DNA from: Cyclobacteriaceae bacterium
Lineage (GTDB): Bacteria; Bacteroidota; Bacteroidia; Cytophagales; Cyclobacteriaceae
Length of the DNA stretch: 64,000 nt
Assembly (NCBI GenBank): GCA_019694875.1
Contig: JAIBBC010000004.1
Coordinates: 116,110 to 180,109 of the forward strand
Direction: 5' to 3'
Shown here: positions 300-46,253 of the stretch, in pieces
Layout: every line of letters begins with the position of its first letter
How positions within the stretch are numbered: position 1 is the stretch's first letter
The notes under the pieces: model-generated
Seen by the model: the letters and a program-made list of their open reading frames with translations, nothing else
Databases searched by the model: none
What the model was told of the DNA's origin: nothing
Program-made: the position numbers and the translations under genes

Positions 300-1069
300 A
301 GGTACTGATCATTGAAGATGAAATTCCTGCCGCAGAAAAGCTGAGCCGATACCTGGCGAAGTACGATGCTTCTATTGTTGTTATAGCTCACCTGACTTCT
401 GTACAGGAGGCGGTGGACTGGCTGCAGGAAAAACAGGACACAGTTGACCTTATTTTCATGGACATCCAGCTTACCGATGGGTTAAGTTTCCAGATCTTCC
501 AGCAGGTAAACATTCGCAAGCCCGTTATTTTCATTACGGCTTTTAATGAATTCGCGCTTGATGCCTTTAAAGTGAACAGCATCGATTATTTGCTGAAGCC
601 AATAACGTTTACGGATTTATCCTCAAGTCTTAAAAAGCTCGATAACCTGCGGGAACAATTGCAATGGAATCCTCAAAAAACGGAACAGCTGCAGGAAACT
701 TTTGTAACACCCAAGACAACTGCATATAAAAACCGGTTTATGGTGAAGCTGGGTGATCACATCCGTTCAATCACAGCCGATCAGATTGCTTTGTTTTATG
801 CCGATGGCCGCGATGTGTACCTCGTGACAACCCAGAATCGGAAGTTCATTGTCGACTATACACTCGAAACACTGGAGGATTTGCTGGAGCCGAAAACATT
901 TTTCAGGATCAACCGCACCTACATCCTTAACATCAACTCGATTAAAGATGTGATTGTCTATTCCAACAGCCGGTTAAAAATTACCCTGACGCAGGAATTC
1001 GATAAAGAAATTATTGTTAGCCGTGAGAAAGTGGGGCCATTTAAGGAATGGTTTGACGGCAGTCACTAA
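296..1069 (+). CDS. LytTR-family two-component response regulator
   Basis: This 257-residue protein has the LytR/AlgR layout. An N-terminal receiver domain (about 1-120) has the acidic pocket at E7-D8, the phospho-acceptor D56 in FMDIQL, and the conserved Lys in YLLKPI. A C-terminal LytTR DNA-binding domain (about 145-250) carries the family hallmarks FYADGRDVYLVT and FFRINRTYILN. In this family phosphorylation by the partner kinase switches binding to direct-repeat promoter sites. The start ATG overlaps the stop of the upstream kinase fragment. The gene runs convergently into a lipoprotein gene with a 4-base overlap, which leaves no room for a terminator between the two. Confidence 0.93.
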   Translation: MKVLIIEDEIPAAEKLSRYLAKYDASIVVIAHLTSVQEAVDWLQEKQDTVDLIFMDIQLTDGLSFQIFQQVNIRKPVIFITAFNEFALDAFKVNSIDYLLKPITFTDLSSSLKKLDNLREQLQWNPQKTEQLQETFVTPKTTAYKNRFMVKLGDHIRSITADQIALFYADGRDVYLVTTQNRKFIVDYTLETLEDLLEPKTFFRINRTYILNINSIKDVIVYSNSRLKITLTQEFDKEIIVSREKVGPFKEWFDGSH

Positions 1070-38038: not shown

Positions 38039-40852
38039 ATGAAAAAGATACTGGCTGAACTGCTGACCATTGGTGATGAAATTCTGTACGGTCAAATTGT
38101 TGATACCAACTCACAATGGATGAGTGTGGAACTCGACAAAATCGGCATCAAGGTTATCCGTAAGACTACCGTGGGCGACCAGGAAGATGAGATTCTCACC
38201 GCTTTCGCGGAAGCTGAAAAACGGGCGGATGTGATTCTCATTACCGGAGGTCTCGGCCCAACCAACGATGACCTGACCAAACCCTGTCTTGCGAAATATT
38301 TTAACTGCGGGATGGCCCTAAACGAAGAAGCCCTGGCCGAAGTAACTGAGTTTTTTAAAAGTCGTGGTCGCGAACTTACCGAAGTAAACCGGCTGCAAGC
38401 CATGCTTCCAACAGCTTGCGAAAAAATTACCAATCAGATCGGTACAGCTCCCGGTATGTGGTTTCCGAAAGGCGATAAAGTTTTTATGTCGATGCCGGGA
38501 GTGCCGCACGAGATGAAAATGATGATGACCGACCATGTTCTTCCCAGACTTAAAGCAACATTCAAAACACCGATTATCTATCACAAAGTAGTCCGCACGA
38601 TCGGGGTGGGCGAATCGATTCTTGCAGAAAAAATTGCCGACTGGGAAAATGCGTTGCCTGAACATATTGGTCTTGCCTACCTGCCCAGCCTGGGCGAAGT
38701 AAAGCTGCGGATCACTGGCTTTGGAGATTCGCATGACAAGCTGGAAGCCGAAATAAACGGATTGACAAAAACACTTGAGGACAGGATTGGTCAATTTATT
38801 TTTGGCTATGGCGATGAGCCCATCGAAGCCGTGATTGGCAAAATGTTGATTCAAAGAAAACTTACGCTATCAATCGCGGAAAGTTGTACCGGTGGATACT
38901 TATCTCATCTGGTCACCAGTATCCCCGGCAGCTCCTCTTATTTTTTAGGAAGCATTGTTCCGTACGACTACCAGATCAAAATGCGGCAACTGGGTGTAAA
39001 GCCTGAAACGCTTGAAAAATATGGCGCAGTAAGCGAACCAACCATCATTGAAATGGCAAATATCGTTCGTGCAAAGTTCAACACCGACATTGGAGTGGCT
39101 ACAAGCGGCATTGCAGGACCGGGCGGTGCAACGCCCGACAAGCCGGTAGGAACTGTGTGGATCGCATACTCCGACAAGCATCACACGGTCACAAAAAAAC
39201 TTCAGCTTTCGAAAGACCGGATGATCAACATTCGCACGGCATCCATTGCCGTATTGAACCTGATCCGTCAAAGCTTGCCGAAATCGAATACCTTATTAGT
39301 GATTCTGATGCTGTTATCCTTTTTAACGTACGGGCAAACGGGCAGGCGGGACAGTTTAATTGCCGAGTTAAAAGAACATCCTCAGCAGGATACTGTGCGG
39401 GTCAATCTGTTAAATGCCATTACGCATAAATCATGGATAACAGATCCCCATAAAAATTTTGACTATGCAACAGAAGCGCTCAGGTTGTCTGAAACACTGA
39501 ACTATCAAAAAGGGGTAGCAACCTCATACCGTGAAATCGCCAACTATTATTGGAGTCAAACGGATTACGCACACGCCATGGACTATGCATTGCTGGCTCA
39601 GGAGGTGTATCGAAAGATGGGAGACCTGAAAGGCGTAAGCTGGTCGTACGGCATGATCGGCTTAAATTATTCACAGGCAAACAACTACGAAAAAGCCATC
39701 GAATATCACAAAAAAGCACTCGAACTAAATACGCAGATAAATCATAAAACAGGTATTGCCCGGGACTTTAATAATTTAGGCTATACGCATGAATTGATGA
39801 AGGACTTCACTTCTGCGCGTGACAATTATGTAAAGGCACTGAATATGCGTATGGCGATCGGTGATTCGGCCGAAATGATTTTACCCTTCCTTAATGTGGG
39901 AGCGATAAACATTACGCTGAAAAATTATCCTGCAGCCCTTGAGCATCTTTCAAAAGCGCAACGACTGGCAAAAAAATTCAACAACAATAACCTGATCGCG
40001 CTGATTGATCAGAACTTCGGTTCCATCGATGTTGCGAAGGGTAATTATAAGTCTGCCCTTGAGCATTACCAGGCCGCACTAAAGCTTGCCCATCAGATTG
40101 GAGATAAGAAACGCAAGGAAAATGTTTATGAGGACCTGCGAATCATGGAAGAGTCGAGAAAGAACTACCAGGGTGCTTATACCTATGCTCAGCGTCTTCA
40201 GGGAATCCGCGACACGCTTTATACCCAGGAGCAGACGATGAAAATGGCTGAGATGGAAGCCCGCACCGAACGGGAAAAGCAGGCTCAGGCGATTCAGCTA
40301 CTGGAAAAGGATAAACGAATTCAAACGCTTTGGACAAACATTTTAATAGCGGGATTTGTGCTTGTCGTGCTTGCTTTTACATTGACGTATTCAATTCAAC
40401 GGTACCGCAACCGTAAAAACCGTGAATTCCTGAATATTCAGATTGATTTATTGACAAGCCAGAATGAAGAATTAAGTGAAAAGTATAAACAGGCCATTAC
40501 GGGAACTTACAGCGACCCGGTTGAATCTGTTGATCAGCGATTGCTTCGAAAAGCACTGGAAGTAGTCGAGAAAAATATCGCTGATCCTGATTTCAATGTA
40601 GAGAAAATGGCTGAAAAAATGGCTATGAGCCGCGTTAACCTTCACCGCAAAATGAAAACTATCACAGGTTTCGCACCCAGCGAATTTATACGCAACGTGC
40701 GTCTGAAACGTGCTGCCAACCTGCTGCGAAACCATGCGGATTCGGTGTCTCAAATCGGTTATAGCGTTGGATTTGAAGACCAGTCGTATTTCTCTAAAAC
40801 GTTCAAACGCGAATTTGGAGTGTCGCCCTCTGAATACCGCATGCAATCGTAG
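38039..40852 (+). CDS. cinA: CinA fused to a membrane TPR-AraC transcription regulator
   Basis: One uninterrupted frame of 937 residues joins two proteins that are normally separate. Residues 1-413 are a complete CinA: the molybdopterin-binding-like domain with TIGDEILYGQIVDTNSQ and ITGGLGPTNDDLTK, then the C-terminal deamidase domain with SIAESCTGGYLSH, GSIVPYDYQI and TSGIAGPGGATPDKPVGTVW. CinA acts on NMN and ADP-ribose-type compounds. Directly after residue 413 follow a hydrophobic signal-like segment (LLVILMLLSFLTYGQ), six or so TPR units, a second membrane segment near 764-787 and an AraC DNA-binding domain (about 850-937, SVSQIGYSVGFEDQSYFSKTF). I chose ATG 38039; TTG 38015 is too far upstream. 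TTG 39275, GTG 39299 or ATG 39308 could start a separate second protein. Confidence 0.85.
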   Translation: MKKILAELLTIGDEILYGQIVDTNSQWMSVELDKIGIKVIRKTTVGDQEDEILTAFAEAEKRADVILITGGLGPTNDDLTKPCLAKYFNCGMALNEEALAEVTEFFKSRGRELTEVNRLQAMLPTACEKITNQIGTAPGMWFPKGDKVFMSMPGVPHEMKMMMTDHVLPRLKATFKTPIIYHKVVRTIGVGESILAEKIADWENALPEHIGLAYLPSLGEVKLRITGFGDSHDKLEAEINGLTKTLEDRIGQFIFGYGDEPIEAVIGKMLIQRKLTLSIAESCTGGYLSHLVTSIPGSSSYFLGSIVPYDYQIKMRQLGVKPETLEKYGAVSEPTIIEMANIVRAKFNTDIGVATSGIAGPGGATPDKPVGTVWIAYSDKHHTVTKKLQLSKDRMINIRTASIAVLNLIRQSLPKSNTLLVILMLLSFLTYGQTGRRDSLIAELKEHPQQDTVRVNLLNAITHKSWITDPHKNFDYATEALRLSETLNYQKGVATSYREIANYYWSQTDYAHAMDYALLAQEVYRKMGDLKGVSWSYGMIGLNYSQANNYEKAIEYHKKALELNTQINHKTGIARDFNNLGYTHELMKDFTSARDNYVKALNMRMAIGDSAEMILPFLNVGAINITLKNYPAALEHLSKAQRLAKKFNNNNLIALIDQNFGSIDVAKGNYKSALEHYQAALKLAHQIGDKKRKENVYEDLRIMEESRKNYQGAYTYAQRLQGIRDTLYTQEQTMKMAEMEARTEREKQAQAIQLLEKDKRIQTLWTNILIAGFVLVVLAFTLTYSIQRYRNRKNREFLNIQIDLLTSQNEELSEKYKQAITGTYSDPVESVDQRLLRKALEVVEKNIADPDFNVEKMAEKMAMSRVNLHRKMKTITGFAPSEFIRNVRLKRAANLLRNHADSVSQIGYSVGFEDQSYFSKTFKREFGVSPSEYRMQS

Positions 40853-40983
40853 CCGTTTGCGCAATTACCGATTGTTATGACCCTCTATCCGGACGGGCAG
40901 TTTTTTACTGATGACCAGATCAGCAGCGGATGGCGTTCCCACAAAAAAGGGTAATTTTACGCTCCGAAAACGTTAGAAATCGT

Positions 40984-42285
40984 ATGGCATCAGTAGAGCT
41001 AATCATGCCTAAAATGGGCGAAAGTATCATGGAAGCGACTATCCTTTCATGGTTAAAGAAGCCTGGCGACAAAATCGAGCAGGATGAATCCGTGCTGGAA
41101 GTTGCAACCGACAAGGTTGACACCGAAGTACCCTCCACCCATGCCGGAGTTTTGAAAGAAATTCTCGCGAAAGAAGGTGAAGTGGTGAAAGTGGGCAAAC
41201 CAATTGCCATTATCACAACGGAAGCAGAGGCATCCAATGGTTCCGCACCGGTAACACCTGAACCGAAAAAAGAGTCGAAAAAAGCTGCTAAAGAAACTGC
41301 CGAGCCTGTTATGAGCAATTCCAACGGAGCTTCGCATGCAGCCGCAGATTATAAATCATCAAACCGCTTTTATTCTCCGCTGGTGAAGAACATCGCGAAG
41401 GAAGAAAATATCTCGGTTGCAGAACTTGAGTCAATTGCAGGCTCAGGACTGGAAGGCCGCGTAACCAAAAAAGATATTCTCGGATTCGTTCAAAATCGCA
41501 AACTTGGCAAAACTATTCAGGCTACACCTGTTAAATCCGTGTCGTCTGCTCCGCTGGTTCCTGCATCGGTTAGCGCTGGTGATGAAATCATCGAGATGGA
41601 CCGCATGCGCAAGATGATTGCCGAACGCATGGTGGATTCGAAGCGTATTTCTCCGCACGTCACTTCATTTGTGGAAGCTGATGTTACCAACATCGTATTC
41701 TGGAGAAACAAAATGAAGAACGAGTTTCAGAAACGTGAAGGTGATGCACTAACATTTACACCGATCTTCATTGAGGCGATCATTCAGGCCATTAAAGACT
41801 ACCCGATGATCAACATTCAGGTGGATGGCGACCGGATCATCAAGAAAAAAGATATCAACATCGGTATGGCGGTAGCGTTGCCAACCGGCAACCTGATTGT
41901 TCCGGTAATCAGAAATGCCGATCAGTTCAACCTGACCGGTCTGGCTAAGGTGGTGAACGACCTGGCGAAACGCGCCCGTGAAAACAAACTTAAGCCTGAC
42001 GAACTTTCAGGTGGAACGTTCACCGTTTCAAACGTAGGTTCATTTGGTAACGTTATGGGAACACCCATTATCATGCAGCCTCAGGTTGGTATCATTGCAT
42101 TGGGCGCTGTACAGAAAAAGCCTGCTGTAATAGAAACTCCTTACGGAGACGCAATTGCGATCCGCCATAAAATGTTCCTCTCCCACTCGTACGATCATCG
42201 CGTGGTTGATGGTTCACTCGGTGGAATGGTGGTAAGGCGAGTGGCCGACTACCTCGAGAAGTTCGACATCAACAGAAGCATCTAA
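40984..42285 (+). CDS. 2-oxo acid dehydrogenase complex dihydrolipoamide acyltransferase (E2)
   Basis: The start at ATG 40984 gives 433 residues; an earlier frame start at 40930 lacks any domain. The order is a lipoyl domain (1-80) with lipoyl-Lys44 in ATDKVDTEV, a Ser/Lys/Glu-rich linker, a peripheral-subunit-binding domain near 125-160 (RFYSPLVKNIAKEENIS and GLEGRVTKKDIL), and an acyltransferase core ending SHSYDHRVVDGSLGG with the catalytic His and Asp. A single lipoyl domain and this core fit the branched-chain or 2-oxoglutarate complexes as well as pyruvate. E1 and E3 genes are not in the window. A strong terminator follows. Confidence 0.93.
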   Translation: MASVELIMPKMGESIMEATILSWLKKPGDKIEQDESVLEVATDKVDTEVPSTHAGVLKEILAKEGEVVKVGKPIAIITTEAEASNGSAPVTPEPKKESKKAAKETAEPVMSNSNGASHAAADYKSSNRFYSPLVKNIAKEENISVAELESIAGSGLEGRVTKKDILGFVQNRKLGKTIQATPVKSVSSAPLVPASVSAGDEIIEMDRMRKMIAERMVDSKRISPHVTSFVEADVTNIVFWRNKMKNEFQKREGDALTFTPIFIEAIIQAIKDYPMINIQVDGDRIIKKKDINIGMAVALPTGNLIVPVIRNADQFNLTGLAKVVNDLAKRARENKLKPDELSGGTFTVSNVGSFGNVMGTPIIMQPQVGIIALGAVQKKPAVIETPYGDAIAIRHKMFLSHSYDHRVVDGSLGGMVVRRVADYLEKFDINRSI

Positions 42286-43496: not shown

Positions 43497-46253
43497 TTAG
43501 TTTGTAACTCCGTTTCTAACGCGACTAATCGTAACCCAACCAACAGGCGTGGCCACCACCGTTATACTGTAAACATACGTGCTAACCTCCTGGTTAAAGA
43601 GCAGGAAATAGTTTCCACCCTGCGTTCCATCTAAAAAATCCTTGGGATCCTGAAGACCAACCCGTGCACCCGTTGATGGATCATCGCCCATAGCACGGAC
43701 TGTAATAATCCTGCCGATGTAAGACGATGACGGCGGAAGCGCTATATCCATCGGCTTCGCACTTGACGTGCGCTGCGCAATAATCATATAATCGTTGTCT
43801 TTTACGTCATAGTTGCTGGTCGAGGCCGGCAGTACGGTCAGGTTCACGAACTGAGAACCATTTACGTGCAAATTTCCTTTCGGTGACGCAGTATTTACCC
43901 CGAGGTAACTGTTCTTGCTGTCCCACACAAAATTGGTTGTGCTGGTTACGCTTGACGTTCCCGACCAGAACGTAACCTGATCAACATCGCCTCCACCGGT
44001 AACTCCACTGCCTGTTGCATCCGCAGACGGCACCCAGGCATTTAAAATGGTTGACCATTTTAATACCTGCCCATTGGTTGGCGCAGTCGTCGAAATTGCG
44101 CGGCCCTGCAACGCATCAACTGTTGGGTTTGGATACGTTCCATTGAGATCACCGCCAGCTGCTCCACCGGGAGCAACACCTGCAACAGTGGTACTGGTTG
44201 CGGCTGTTATTCTTCCTTGCGCGTCCACTGTTATTTGTGGAACTGTGGTAGCTGATCCATACGTATTTGCTGTAACACCTGTAGAAGCCAGCTTTACAGC
44301 TGTCACCGATCCGTCTGCTATCTCGGTAGTTCCCACTGCACCCGTGGCGATCTCTGCAGCGGTTACCGCATTCGCTGCGATTTGTAAACCCGCTGAAAAG
44401 CTGCCGCTGATATCTCCGGCTGCAGGTGCTTCCGTGTCGAGCACGACAGCCGTGTTCAGGCGGTTGGTATTAATCGTTCCGGAAGTCGATGCGTCATTGA
44501 TTGCTGTTACAACATTTGTTCCCGCTGTGTTAGCAATTGTCGGATTCGGGTACGTTCCAGCCAGGTTTCCACCAGCCGTTCCTCCCGGAGTTGTTCCGCT
44601 GATGGTTACGTTATTCCCTCCGCTGATCGCCAGTAATCCGGTTGCGGATGTATAGGTAAGGGTTTGACCATCCGTGTTGATCGTTGAAAGATTAACGGAG
44701 TTTCCACCGGATATTGTGAGATTTGGAGAAGTGAATGACAATGTCTGAGCGTCTGTTCCGACATTATCAGCTTGTGGAGTCCAGTTTGTTCCGTTCCATT
44801 TCAATACCTGACCGGAAGCAGCACCACCGGCTGTAATTTTAGAAGGCGCAACGGCAGATATTTTTATATCCGTTACCGAGGCATCGGCAAGTTTGGCAGT
44901 TGATATTGATCCAGTCGCGACTGTTGGATTGGGGTATGTTCCGGTTAAATCGCCACCTGCAGTTCCGGCAGGAGCTACACCCGTGATGGTTGTATTCACC
45001 ACTCCGGTAATTCGTCCCTGCGCATCCACTGTAAGTTGAGGTACTTGTGTTGCCGTTCCGTAAGTTCCGGAAGTAACAGCAGTATTCGCAAGCTTTAGCG
45101 CTGTTACGGAACCATCGGCCAAATCTGCGGTAGCAATTGTTCCATCAACAATCTTTCCAGAAGTGATTGTATTGGTTGCTACGGTCGGATTCGGATACGT
45201 ACCCGCTAAATCGCCACCGGCAGTTCCGGCAGGAGCTACACCCGTTATGGTTGTGTTTACAACCCCGGTAATTCGTCCTTGCGCATCCACCGTGAGTTGC
45301 GGTACCTGTGTTGCCGTTCCGTAAGTTCCGGAAGTAACAGCAGTATTCGCAAGCTTTAGCGCTGTTACGGAACCATCTGCAAGGTCAGCCGTAGCAATTG
45401 TTCCATCTGTAATTTTTGCTGAAGTAATAGCATTGTTAGCAACGGTAGGATTAGGATAGGTTCCTGCCAGGTCTCCCCCGGCTGCTCCACCCGGAGGAAT
45501 ACCCGTGATCGAAACTAATGTAACACCGGTAATACGTCCTTGTGCATCAACGGTTAATTGAGGAACCTGTGTTGCCGATCCGTATGATCCTGCTGTAACT
45601 GCGGTGTTTGCAAGTTTGGCAGCCGTTACAGAAGCGTTGGCAAGATCAGCTGTAGCAATGGTGCCGTCAGCAATATCACCGGAGGTAATTGTTCCGTCCG
45701 TAATCTCTGTAGTTGTAACCGCGTTCGCGGCAAGCGTTGGATTTGGATAGGTACCGGTTAAGTCGCCACCCGCTGTGCCTCCGGGAAGTGTTCCGGTAAT
45801 TGTCACTGCATTTCCCCCTGTGATGCTTAATTGCCCCGAAGCAGCAACGTAAGAAAGTGTCTGACCATCGGTATTAATGGTAGAAAGGTTTACACTGTTA
45901 CCTCCCGAAATGCTCAGATTAGGTGATGTAAAAGAAAGTGTTTGACTGTCGGTTCCCACACTGTCTTCAATGACTGTCCAGGCTGTACCACTCCAGTAGT
46001 AAAACTTTTTCGTATCCGTATCGAACACGAGCAAACCGGTTTCAGCGGTTGTAAGGGATGAGGTAAATGCCGCATCCGTTCGTTGTGCTGTAGTCAGGCG
46101 TGGCACAAGGAAACCCTGATTATTATTCGGTGATTTCAGTTCAAGAACAGCTTTCGCATTTGGAACATCGGTTCCAATGCCCACTTGAGCAAAAGCAGAG
46201 TAAAAACCAGCAGCGAAGAAGACAATAAGCAAATAGCGTAAAATGTGTTTCAT
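43497..46253 (-). CDS. Large repeat-built surface protein (GTYPNP repeats), paralogue B
   Basis: This 918-residue protein has a signal peptide (MKHILRYLLIVFFAAGFYSAFAQ). The first ~85 mature residues form a conserved head shared with the next gene upstream (VGIGTDVPN, FLVPRLTTAQRT, FYYWSGTAW). Then six GTYPNP-type units follow, with a common period of 87 residues (GTYPNPTVATNTITSGK and so on), interrupted by non-repeat Gly/Ser/Thr-rich linkers. The tail is different: STSNYDVKDNDYM and FLLFNQEVSTYVYSITV end the protein. No T9SS sorting domain is visible. Similar GTYPNP repeats occur in phage tail fibres and bacterial adhesin-like proteins, so a fibre or adhesin role is inferred. Confidence 0.85.
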   Translation of the reverse strand: MKHILRYLLIVFFAAGFYSAFAQVGIGTDVPNAKAVLELKSPNNNQGFLVPRLTTAQRTDAAFTSSLTTAETGLLVFDTDTKKFYYWSGTAWTVIEDSVGTDSQTLSFTSPNLSISGGNSVNLSTINTDGQTLSYVAASGQLSITGGNAVTITGTLPGGTAGGDLTGTYPNPTLAANAVTTTEITDGTITSGDIADGTIATADLANASVTAAKLANTAVTAGSYGSATQVPQLTVDAQGRITGVTLVSITGIPPGGAAGGDLAGTYPNPTVANNAITSAKITDGTIATADLADGSVTALKLANTAVTSGTYGTATQVPQLTVDAQGRITGVVNTTITGVAPAGTAGGDLAGTYPNPTVATNTITSGKIVDGTIATADLADGSVTALKLANTAVTSGTYGTATQVPQLTVDAQGRITGVVNTTITGVAPAGTAGGDLTGTYPNPTVATGSISTAKLADASVTDIKISAVAPSKITAGGAASGQVLKWNGTNWTPQADNVGTDAQTLSFTSPNLTISGGNSVNLSTINTDGQTLTYTSATGLLAISGGNNVTISGTTPGGTAGGNLAGTYPNPTIANTAGTNVVTAINDASTSGTINTNRLNTAVVLDTEAPAAGDISGSFSAGLQIAANAVTAAEIATGAVGTTEIADGSVTAVKLASTGVTANTYGSATTVPQITVDAQGRITAATSTTVAGVAPGGAAGGDLNGTYPNPTVDALQGRAISTTAPTNGQVLKWSTILNAWVPSADATGSGVTGGGDVDQVTFWSGTSSVTSTTNFVWDSKNSYLGVNTASPKGNLHVNGSQFVNLTVLPASTSNYDVKDNDYMIIAQRTSSAKPMDIALPPSSSYIGRIITVRAMGDDPSTGARVGLQDPKDFLDGTQGGNYFLLFNQEVSTYVYSITVVATPVGWVTISRVRNGVTN
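44100..45800 (-). repeat. Tandem GTYPNP-coding repeats of paralogue B
   Basis: There are six repeat units on the coding strand. Two consecutive copies are 261 bases apart (matching anchor bases at 44986 and 45247) and nearly identical. The unit encodes the 87-residue period and is a multiple of three, so gain or loss keeps the frame. Confidence 0.8.

Follow-up and report, generated by a model that had tools for sequence, protein, structure and literature searches.

A cinA gene joined in frame to a TPR-AraC membrane regulator gene in two genomes of the Cyclobacteriaceae

Results

The fused frame and its domain layout

The window analyzed in this work is a stretch of 64,000 nucleotides from a Cyclobacteriaceae bacterium (contig JAIBBC010000004.1; its own genome is G000), and it was compared with Cyclobacteriaceae MAG-352 (JAEUUJ; genome G004, locus L037) and MAG-351 (JAEUUI; genome G005, locus L038), each pair of genome and locus being taken as one genome. 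An uninterrupted frame of 937 codons occupies positions 38039-40852 of its plus strand, from the ATG at 38039 to the TAG at 40850-40852, and encodes, in this order, a complete CinA, a hydrophobic segment, TPRs, a second membrane helix and an AraC-type DNA-binding domain. It is followed by the gene of an E2 acyltransferase (40930-42285), whose true start probably lies downstream of the listed ATG at 40930: MAG-351 shares an ATG near 40985 (MASVELIMPKMGES). On the minus strand, a 918-codon frame at 43497-46253 encodes a repetitive protein of GGAAGGDLxGTYPNPTV-type units with a signal-like start. The features of the fused locus are listed below, each with its basis.

38039..39283, plus strand: CinA part, residues 1-415 (Pfam; NF001813; PDB relatives 6mr3 and 4ct8; CinA of MAG-351)
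39284..39334, plus strand: junction and first membrane segment, residues 416-432, SNTLLVILMLLSFLTYG (comparison of codon 416; hydropathy; N-termini of stand-alone relatives)
39285..40942, plus strand: piece common to the window and MAG-352, absent from MAG-351 (blastn; alignments of both edges)
39335..40324, plus strand: TPR region and coiled coil, residues ~433-762 (Pfam TPR_12; low-confidence AlphaFold2 model)
40340..40396, plus strand: second membrane helix, residues 768-786 (hydropathy 2.45 in the window, 2.59 in MAG-352)
40529..40849, plus strand, with the stop TAG at 40850-40852: AraC-type DNA-binding domain, residues ~831-937 (Pfam HTH_18 and HTH_AraC; dN/dS)

Pfam matches over cut-off were obtained along the whole product: MoCF_biosynth (8-172), CinA_KH (182-256) and CinA (260-412), followed by TPR_12 (best stretch 536-604), HTH_18 (857-935) and HTH_AraC (897-934). 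When hydropathy was taken over 19 residues, residues 768-786 gave the strongest peak in both fused proteins, that of the window and that of MAG-352. The first segment reached 1.43 in the window (412-430) and 1.38 in MAG-352 (416-434), and a third peak within the TPRs (605-623; 1.24 and 1.34, respectively) is almost as high, so the first membrane segment is modest by this measure. A single in-frame chain with a coherent topology, as proposed in an earlier sequence-only reading of this DNA, is supported by the open frame, the Pfam matches and the hydropathy profile. The second part carries TPRs, a membrane helix and an AraC HTH on one chain, as seen by Pfam, hydropathy and alignment to L002 and L025-L028, and in these features agrees with the membrane TPR-AraC regulators.

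An AlphaFold2 model of the fused chain (mean pLDDT 71.3, pTM 0.35) places the C-terminal helix of CinA at 394-412, followed by a short loop, a helix at 418-431, TPR hairpins at 437-708, a long helix at 716-755, a helix at 776-806 and the HTH domain. Given that the pLDDT is below 50 at residues 415-435 and 710-836, the model supports the predicted order of the parts and is silent on contacts between domains.

The CinA half

The CinA part shows full-length matches to the NCBIfam equivalog NF001813 (423.9 bits, cut-off 379) and to TIGR00200 (361.7 bits, cut-off 243.15), and is 93% identical to the CinA of MAG-351, which ends at the same codon. By similarity it would comprise a COG1058/MoCF-like ADP-ribose pyrophosphatase domain, a KH-type domain and a PncC (NMN deamidase) domain. 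In an alignment with the PDB relatives, counted by hand, Lys-301 and Thr-340 of the Thermus thermophilus protein (TtCinA), whose catalytic roles are described in PMC4246079, fall on K314 and S356, both invariant across the 16 aligned sequences.

The CinA domain PF02464 has a single match in the window's genome and a single match in MAG-352; the fused gene is the sole carrier of this domain in both genomes, and must therefore supply whatever CinA function these cells need. In MAG-351 there are two matches, the second one in a 166-codon frame, a single-domain PncC gene (G005:C7:377137-377556) for which neither fused genome gave a counterpart. Another genome (G109:C22:174608-176495) has two CinA C-terminal matches less than 2 kb apart, the second in a 117-codon frame, possibly a partial duplication of cinA.

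Position of the join

In MAG-351, the cinA product terminates in LNLIRQSLPK and the next codon is TAA, placed exactly at codon 416 of the window's frame (39284), which is TCG in the window and in MAG-352. The sequence-only reading was right that CinA is complete, and its end needs to be moved from about residue 413 to residue 415 (RQSLPK), codon 416 being the first foreign one. Among the unfused cinA loci, 11 (those read in the right frame) stop after 412-417 residues. Together with the TAA of MAG-351, this indicates that the fusion is the derived state and that the break lies at the stop codon, in agreement with the earlier suggestion of two genes joined by the loss of a stop codon.

The blastn alignment of MAG-351 to the window breaks off at 39284 and resumes at 40943; where the window has the intervening piece, MAG-351 has ~82 bp of unmatched sequence, followed by the flank of the E2 acyltransferase gene. 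In the genome G151 a different gene lies between cinA and the E2 gene. In a search of 395 phylum genomes for a donor of the regulator, the two loci of the window itself were the only ones matched at E 1e-50 or better. Among 195 relatives, matches were found in 8 genomes, the best unfused ones at 35-36% identity, and of the 1722 plasmid records matched by the regulator, none had one place covering 80% of the query.

A second fused genome and selection on both halves

The homologue with both domains in one chain for which the sequence-only reading had proposed a search was found in MAG-352. Its frame has the identical length of 937 codons and its product is 93% identical to that of the window, while the DNA of both loci is 84% identical across 6 kb. 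The proportion of synonymous differences between them (Nei-Gojobori pS) is 0.60 in the CinA half and 0.52 in the TPR-AraC half, and neither frame contains a stop codon or frameshift; since the full-length frame was kept in a second genome at this divergence, it goes beyond what is expected by chance. The CinA half gave a dS of 1.20, a dN of 0.031 and a dN/dS of 0.026, the TPR-AraC half a dS of 0.89, a dN of 0.051 and a dN/dS of 0.057, and the AraC domain (residues 841-937) a dN/dS of 0.016, values which indicate that purifying selection acts on both halves of the fusion.

The sequence-only reading had also proposed a check for a sequencing or assembly error around the join, which might have removed a stop codon. 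MAG-352 is a metagenome-assembled genome and the genome of the window is in 5 contigs, which leaves some room for such errors; nevertheless, since two genomes whose DNA differs to this extent agree in having TCG at codon 416 and in keeping the frame open, an artefact is extremely improbable. Judged from these two sequences, the join is real and not an assembly slip.

Distribution of the fusion

The fusion is present in 2 of the 17 genomes of the genus, the window's own and MAG-352, which disposes of the notion that all relatives keep two genes: one relative is fused, and the other 15 have no fusion. In these 15 the CinA frame has 321-476 codons and the match stops at residue 413-425 of the query; in one of them (G014), at a contig end, the match begins at residue 97. 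We also searched with a query spanning the junction (residues 335-594). Of 390 family genomes, 98 had any match at E 1e-30 and 2 a whole-length one; of 395 class genomes, 64 had any match at E 1e-20, and only that of the window was matched over the whole length. The two samples overlap and neither is complete, MAG-352 is not among the matches of the class search, and CinA genes too distant for these cut-offs did not appear. Several TPR matches to this query start up to ~20 residues within the CinA tail, for example in G817 (family) and in G1184 and G1062 (class).

Some long CinA frames were considered as further candidates and rejected. Among the matches listed, of 261 genomes with a match, those of G397 (672 codons), G282 (621) and G264 (541) have a normal end after CinA and their extra length lies upstream, as it does in G1003 (620 codons), and the frame of G964 (771 codons) consists of cinA, a TAA and the next gene. 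The CinA-TPR-AraC chain is a rare new domain architecture, and a literature search on titles and the beginnings of abstracts found no description of such a protein; the single paper in which CinA, AraC and tetratricopeptide occur together deals, by its title, with a CRISPR array.

Translation across the junction

No stop codon separates the two parts, so that any ribosome translating cinA to completion necessarily continues into the second part, and the fused product is to be expected each time this happens. Codons 416-420 (SNTLL) precede the first of the conserved start candidates; the window and MAG-352 differ there by 3 substitutions, all of them synonymous, an outcome expected for 153 of the 12285 possible triple substitutions of these 15 bases (1.2%). 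Five conserved codons are weak evidence by themselves because the non-coding flanks differ at only 17 of 128 and 13 of 96 aligned bases (13-14%).

In Bacteroidota, TAnnTTTG is the -7 promoter motif. This motif is absent from the 480 bases before the join, and no sigma-70-like site was found on the plus strand from 38037 to the end of the scanned stretch. The nearest occurrence of TAnnTTTG lies within cinA, at 38797, about 490 bases before the join; it is shared by MAG-352 and may reflect coding constraint only. Low synonymous divergence at codons 389-408 was considered as a trace of an internal promoter and discarded, given that 29% of 2000 shuffles reach the lowest value of the gene and that other stretches are lower; no significant synonymous conservation was found before the join.

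Start candidates and the N-termini of stand-alone relatives

The N-terminus of the stand-alone relatives consists of a Met, usually a basic n-region, a hydrophobic core and often an A/G/S-Q end, followed by the TPRs. These relatives are only ~21-36% identical, and the comparison is one of type, not of orthology. Their start was assigned by rule, as the nearest ATG before the hydrophobic core. The distance from this Met to a DSL-type anchor is 20-47 residues in the 37 measurable of 41 loci, and K or R occurs in the n-region of 34 of the 41. For further analysis 36 N-termini were retained, after dropping L063, L076 and L083 (no anchor), L074 (no upstream ATG) and L075 (doubtful anchor at 47), and counting both of the tandem near-copies L047 and L048; their median distance is 25, and none is at 17 or less. 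An (A/G/S)Q pair is present in 25 of the 36, as compared with a mean of 10.9 and a maximum of 20 in 2000 shuffles. As for output domains, those identified are AraC in L002 and L025-L028, which are TPR-AraC proteins, and AraC-like sequence towards the end of the longer frames L045 and L046. L021, L022 and L024, whose contigs are partial or whose chosen range contains a stop, were excluded from the TPR-AraC and CinA alignments.

In the fusion the anchor is D438 and the hydrophobic segment is internal. The sequence-only reading had named three possible starts, TTG 39275, GTG 39299 and ATG 39308, located 25, 17 and 14 residues from the anchor. Only the TTG would provide a start with a basic n-region, and only in the window, since it is TTA in MAG-352; GTG 39299 is ATG in MAG-352, and this codon and ATG 39308 would give n-regions devoid of K or R. 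The conserved candidates after the join would thus give signal peptides shorter than those of any of the 37 measured relatives. From the distances in the relatives, the ancestral start would be expected at about residues 413-415, that is, in the tail of CinA itself, where K415 now provides a basic residue before the first segment.

Discussion

These results suggest how the fusion may have arisen. A gene for a TPR-AraC membrane regulator would have come to sit directly 3' of cinA, and the two would have been joined at the cinA stop codon; the last cinA codons would have replaced the start codon and the basic n-region of the regulator, whose signal peptide would have turned into an internal membrane segment. 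Residues 416-432 are probably this former signal peptide. In G964, a genome of the same family, a gene whose product has a lipoprotein-like signal sequence (L086:872-3184) begins, in frame, with an ATG directly after the TAA of cinA; judged on its first residues, this product is of a sequence type unrelated to TPR-AraC. This arrangement shows that the spot behind cinA can hold an abutting gene for a secreted protein, and it is possibly a half-way stage to such fusions.

We consider it somewhat better than an even chance that the product is one membrane-tethered chain, formed by the join of cinA and the regulator gene at the stop codon, in which CinA and the AraC domain face the cytoplasm and the TPRs lie in the periplasm. 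CinA would be tethered through its C-terminus, the second helix would bring the chain back from the periplasm, and the AraC domain would bind DNA near the membrane in answer to what the TPRs sense, while CinA would ride along as a tethered enzyme and, possibly, as an aid to dimerisation. The positive-inside rule and the comparison with the relatives underlie this predicted topology: R410 and K415 precede the first segment, and RYRNRK follows the second one. The fusion was found in two genomes only, which weighs against this reading, and the model, with its low pTM and with residues 415-435 below pLDDT 50, is of no use for contacts between the domains.

The other readings are not exclusive of one another. 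The main rival of an intact membrane protein, which we hold to be possible and appreciably short of probable, is that one chain is made and that signal peptidase I then cuts it before Gln433, after TYG in the window or SYG in MAG-352, to yield equal amounts of a membrane-tailed CinA and an ordinary TPR-AraC regulator, the fusion serving co-expression only. The first hydrophobic segment is short, of modest hydropathy and cleavable-looking (YGQ), and in both fused genomes it keeps the (A/G/S)Q end of the relatives' signal peptides, so the chain may indeed be cut; however, a signal peptide behind a folded domain of 415 residues may escape cleavage, and the motif may be a mere matter of ancestry. 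It is rather unlikely that the regulator is mostly a free protein made from an internal start, with the loss of the cinA stop being tolerated. TTG 39275 could start such a protein in the organism of the window, for the signal peptide it would give, MPKSNTLLVILMLLSFLTYGQ, looks normal and has the expected length, and GTG 39299 is ATG in MAG-352; against this, the TTG is not conserved, the remaining starts would give short, uncharged signal peptides, neither TAnnTTTG nor significant synonymous conservation was found in the 480 bases before the join, nor a sigma-70-like site on the scanned plus strand, and an internal start would leave the fused product in place.

Still less probable is a neutral accident, with neither half affected by the joining of the frames. 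The scarcity of the fusion in the genus would fit such an accident; on the other hand, the frame has stayed open, free of stops and frameshifts in both genomes, though more than half of the synonymous sites have changed, both halves appear to be under strong constraint, and no second CinA domain is there to compensate. Within the preferred reading of an intact membrane-tethered chain, a doubtful further step would be that CinA, by moving or dimerising under the action of its substrate, gates the AraC domain, which would lie on the same side of the membrane, so that expression follows both a periplasmic signal through the TPRs and cytoplasmic NMN or ADP-ribose; such metabolite-gated regulation is speculation, and the coupling to NAD-metabolite turnover put forward in the sequence-only reading found no support in the present results.

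The locus appears to capture a gene fusion in which a stop codon and the start of a signal peptide were lost at one point, and which has persisted through changes at more than half of the synonymous sites. As an experiment of nature, it allows one to ask whether cleavage of a former signal peptide still takes place when a large cytoplasmic enzyme precedes it, and whether an enzyme of NAD salvage can be linked to a regulator in the membrane.

The CinA of T. thermophilus (PDB 4ct8, 4uoc; PMC4246079) has the same COG1058, KH-type and PncC domains, and the catalytic Lys and Ser/Thr positions are kept in the fusion; that protein ends near the join and is a dimer of three-domain chains, whereas the fusion runs on into a membrane regulator. 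PncC proteins with N-terminal extensions and MocF-CinA fusions, reported in PMC3855486 along with occasional other fusions, likewise join the CinA domain to other parts, but the extensions described are N-terminal and the addition described here is C-terminal, membrane-spanning and, by its domain, predicted to bind DNA. The TPR-AraC proteins of the same family (L002, L025-L028), 34-36% identical, have the TPRs, the second helix, a juxtamembrane stretch and the AraC domain in common with the fusion, and differ from it by having their own start and a signal-like N-terminus. Finally, the model of FimS-like TPR sensor histidine kinases (NF053520) matches residues 538-797, that is, the TPRs and the membrane helix, with 95.2 bits, below its cut-off of 600; by name its output is a kinase, whereas that of the fusion is AraC.
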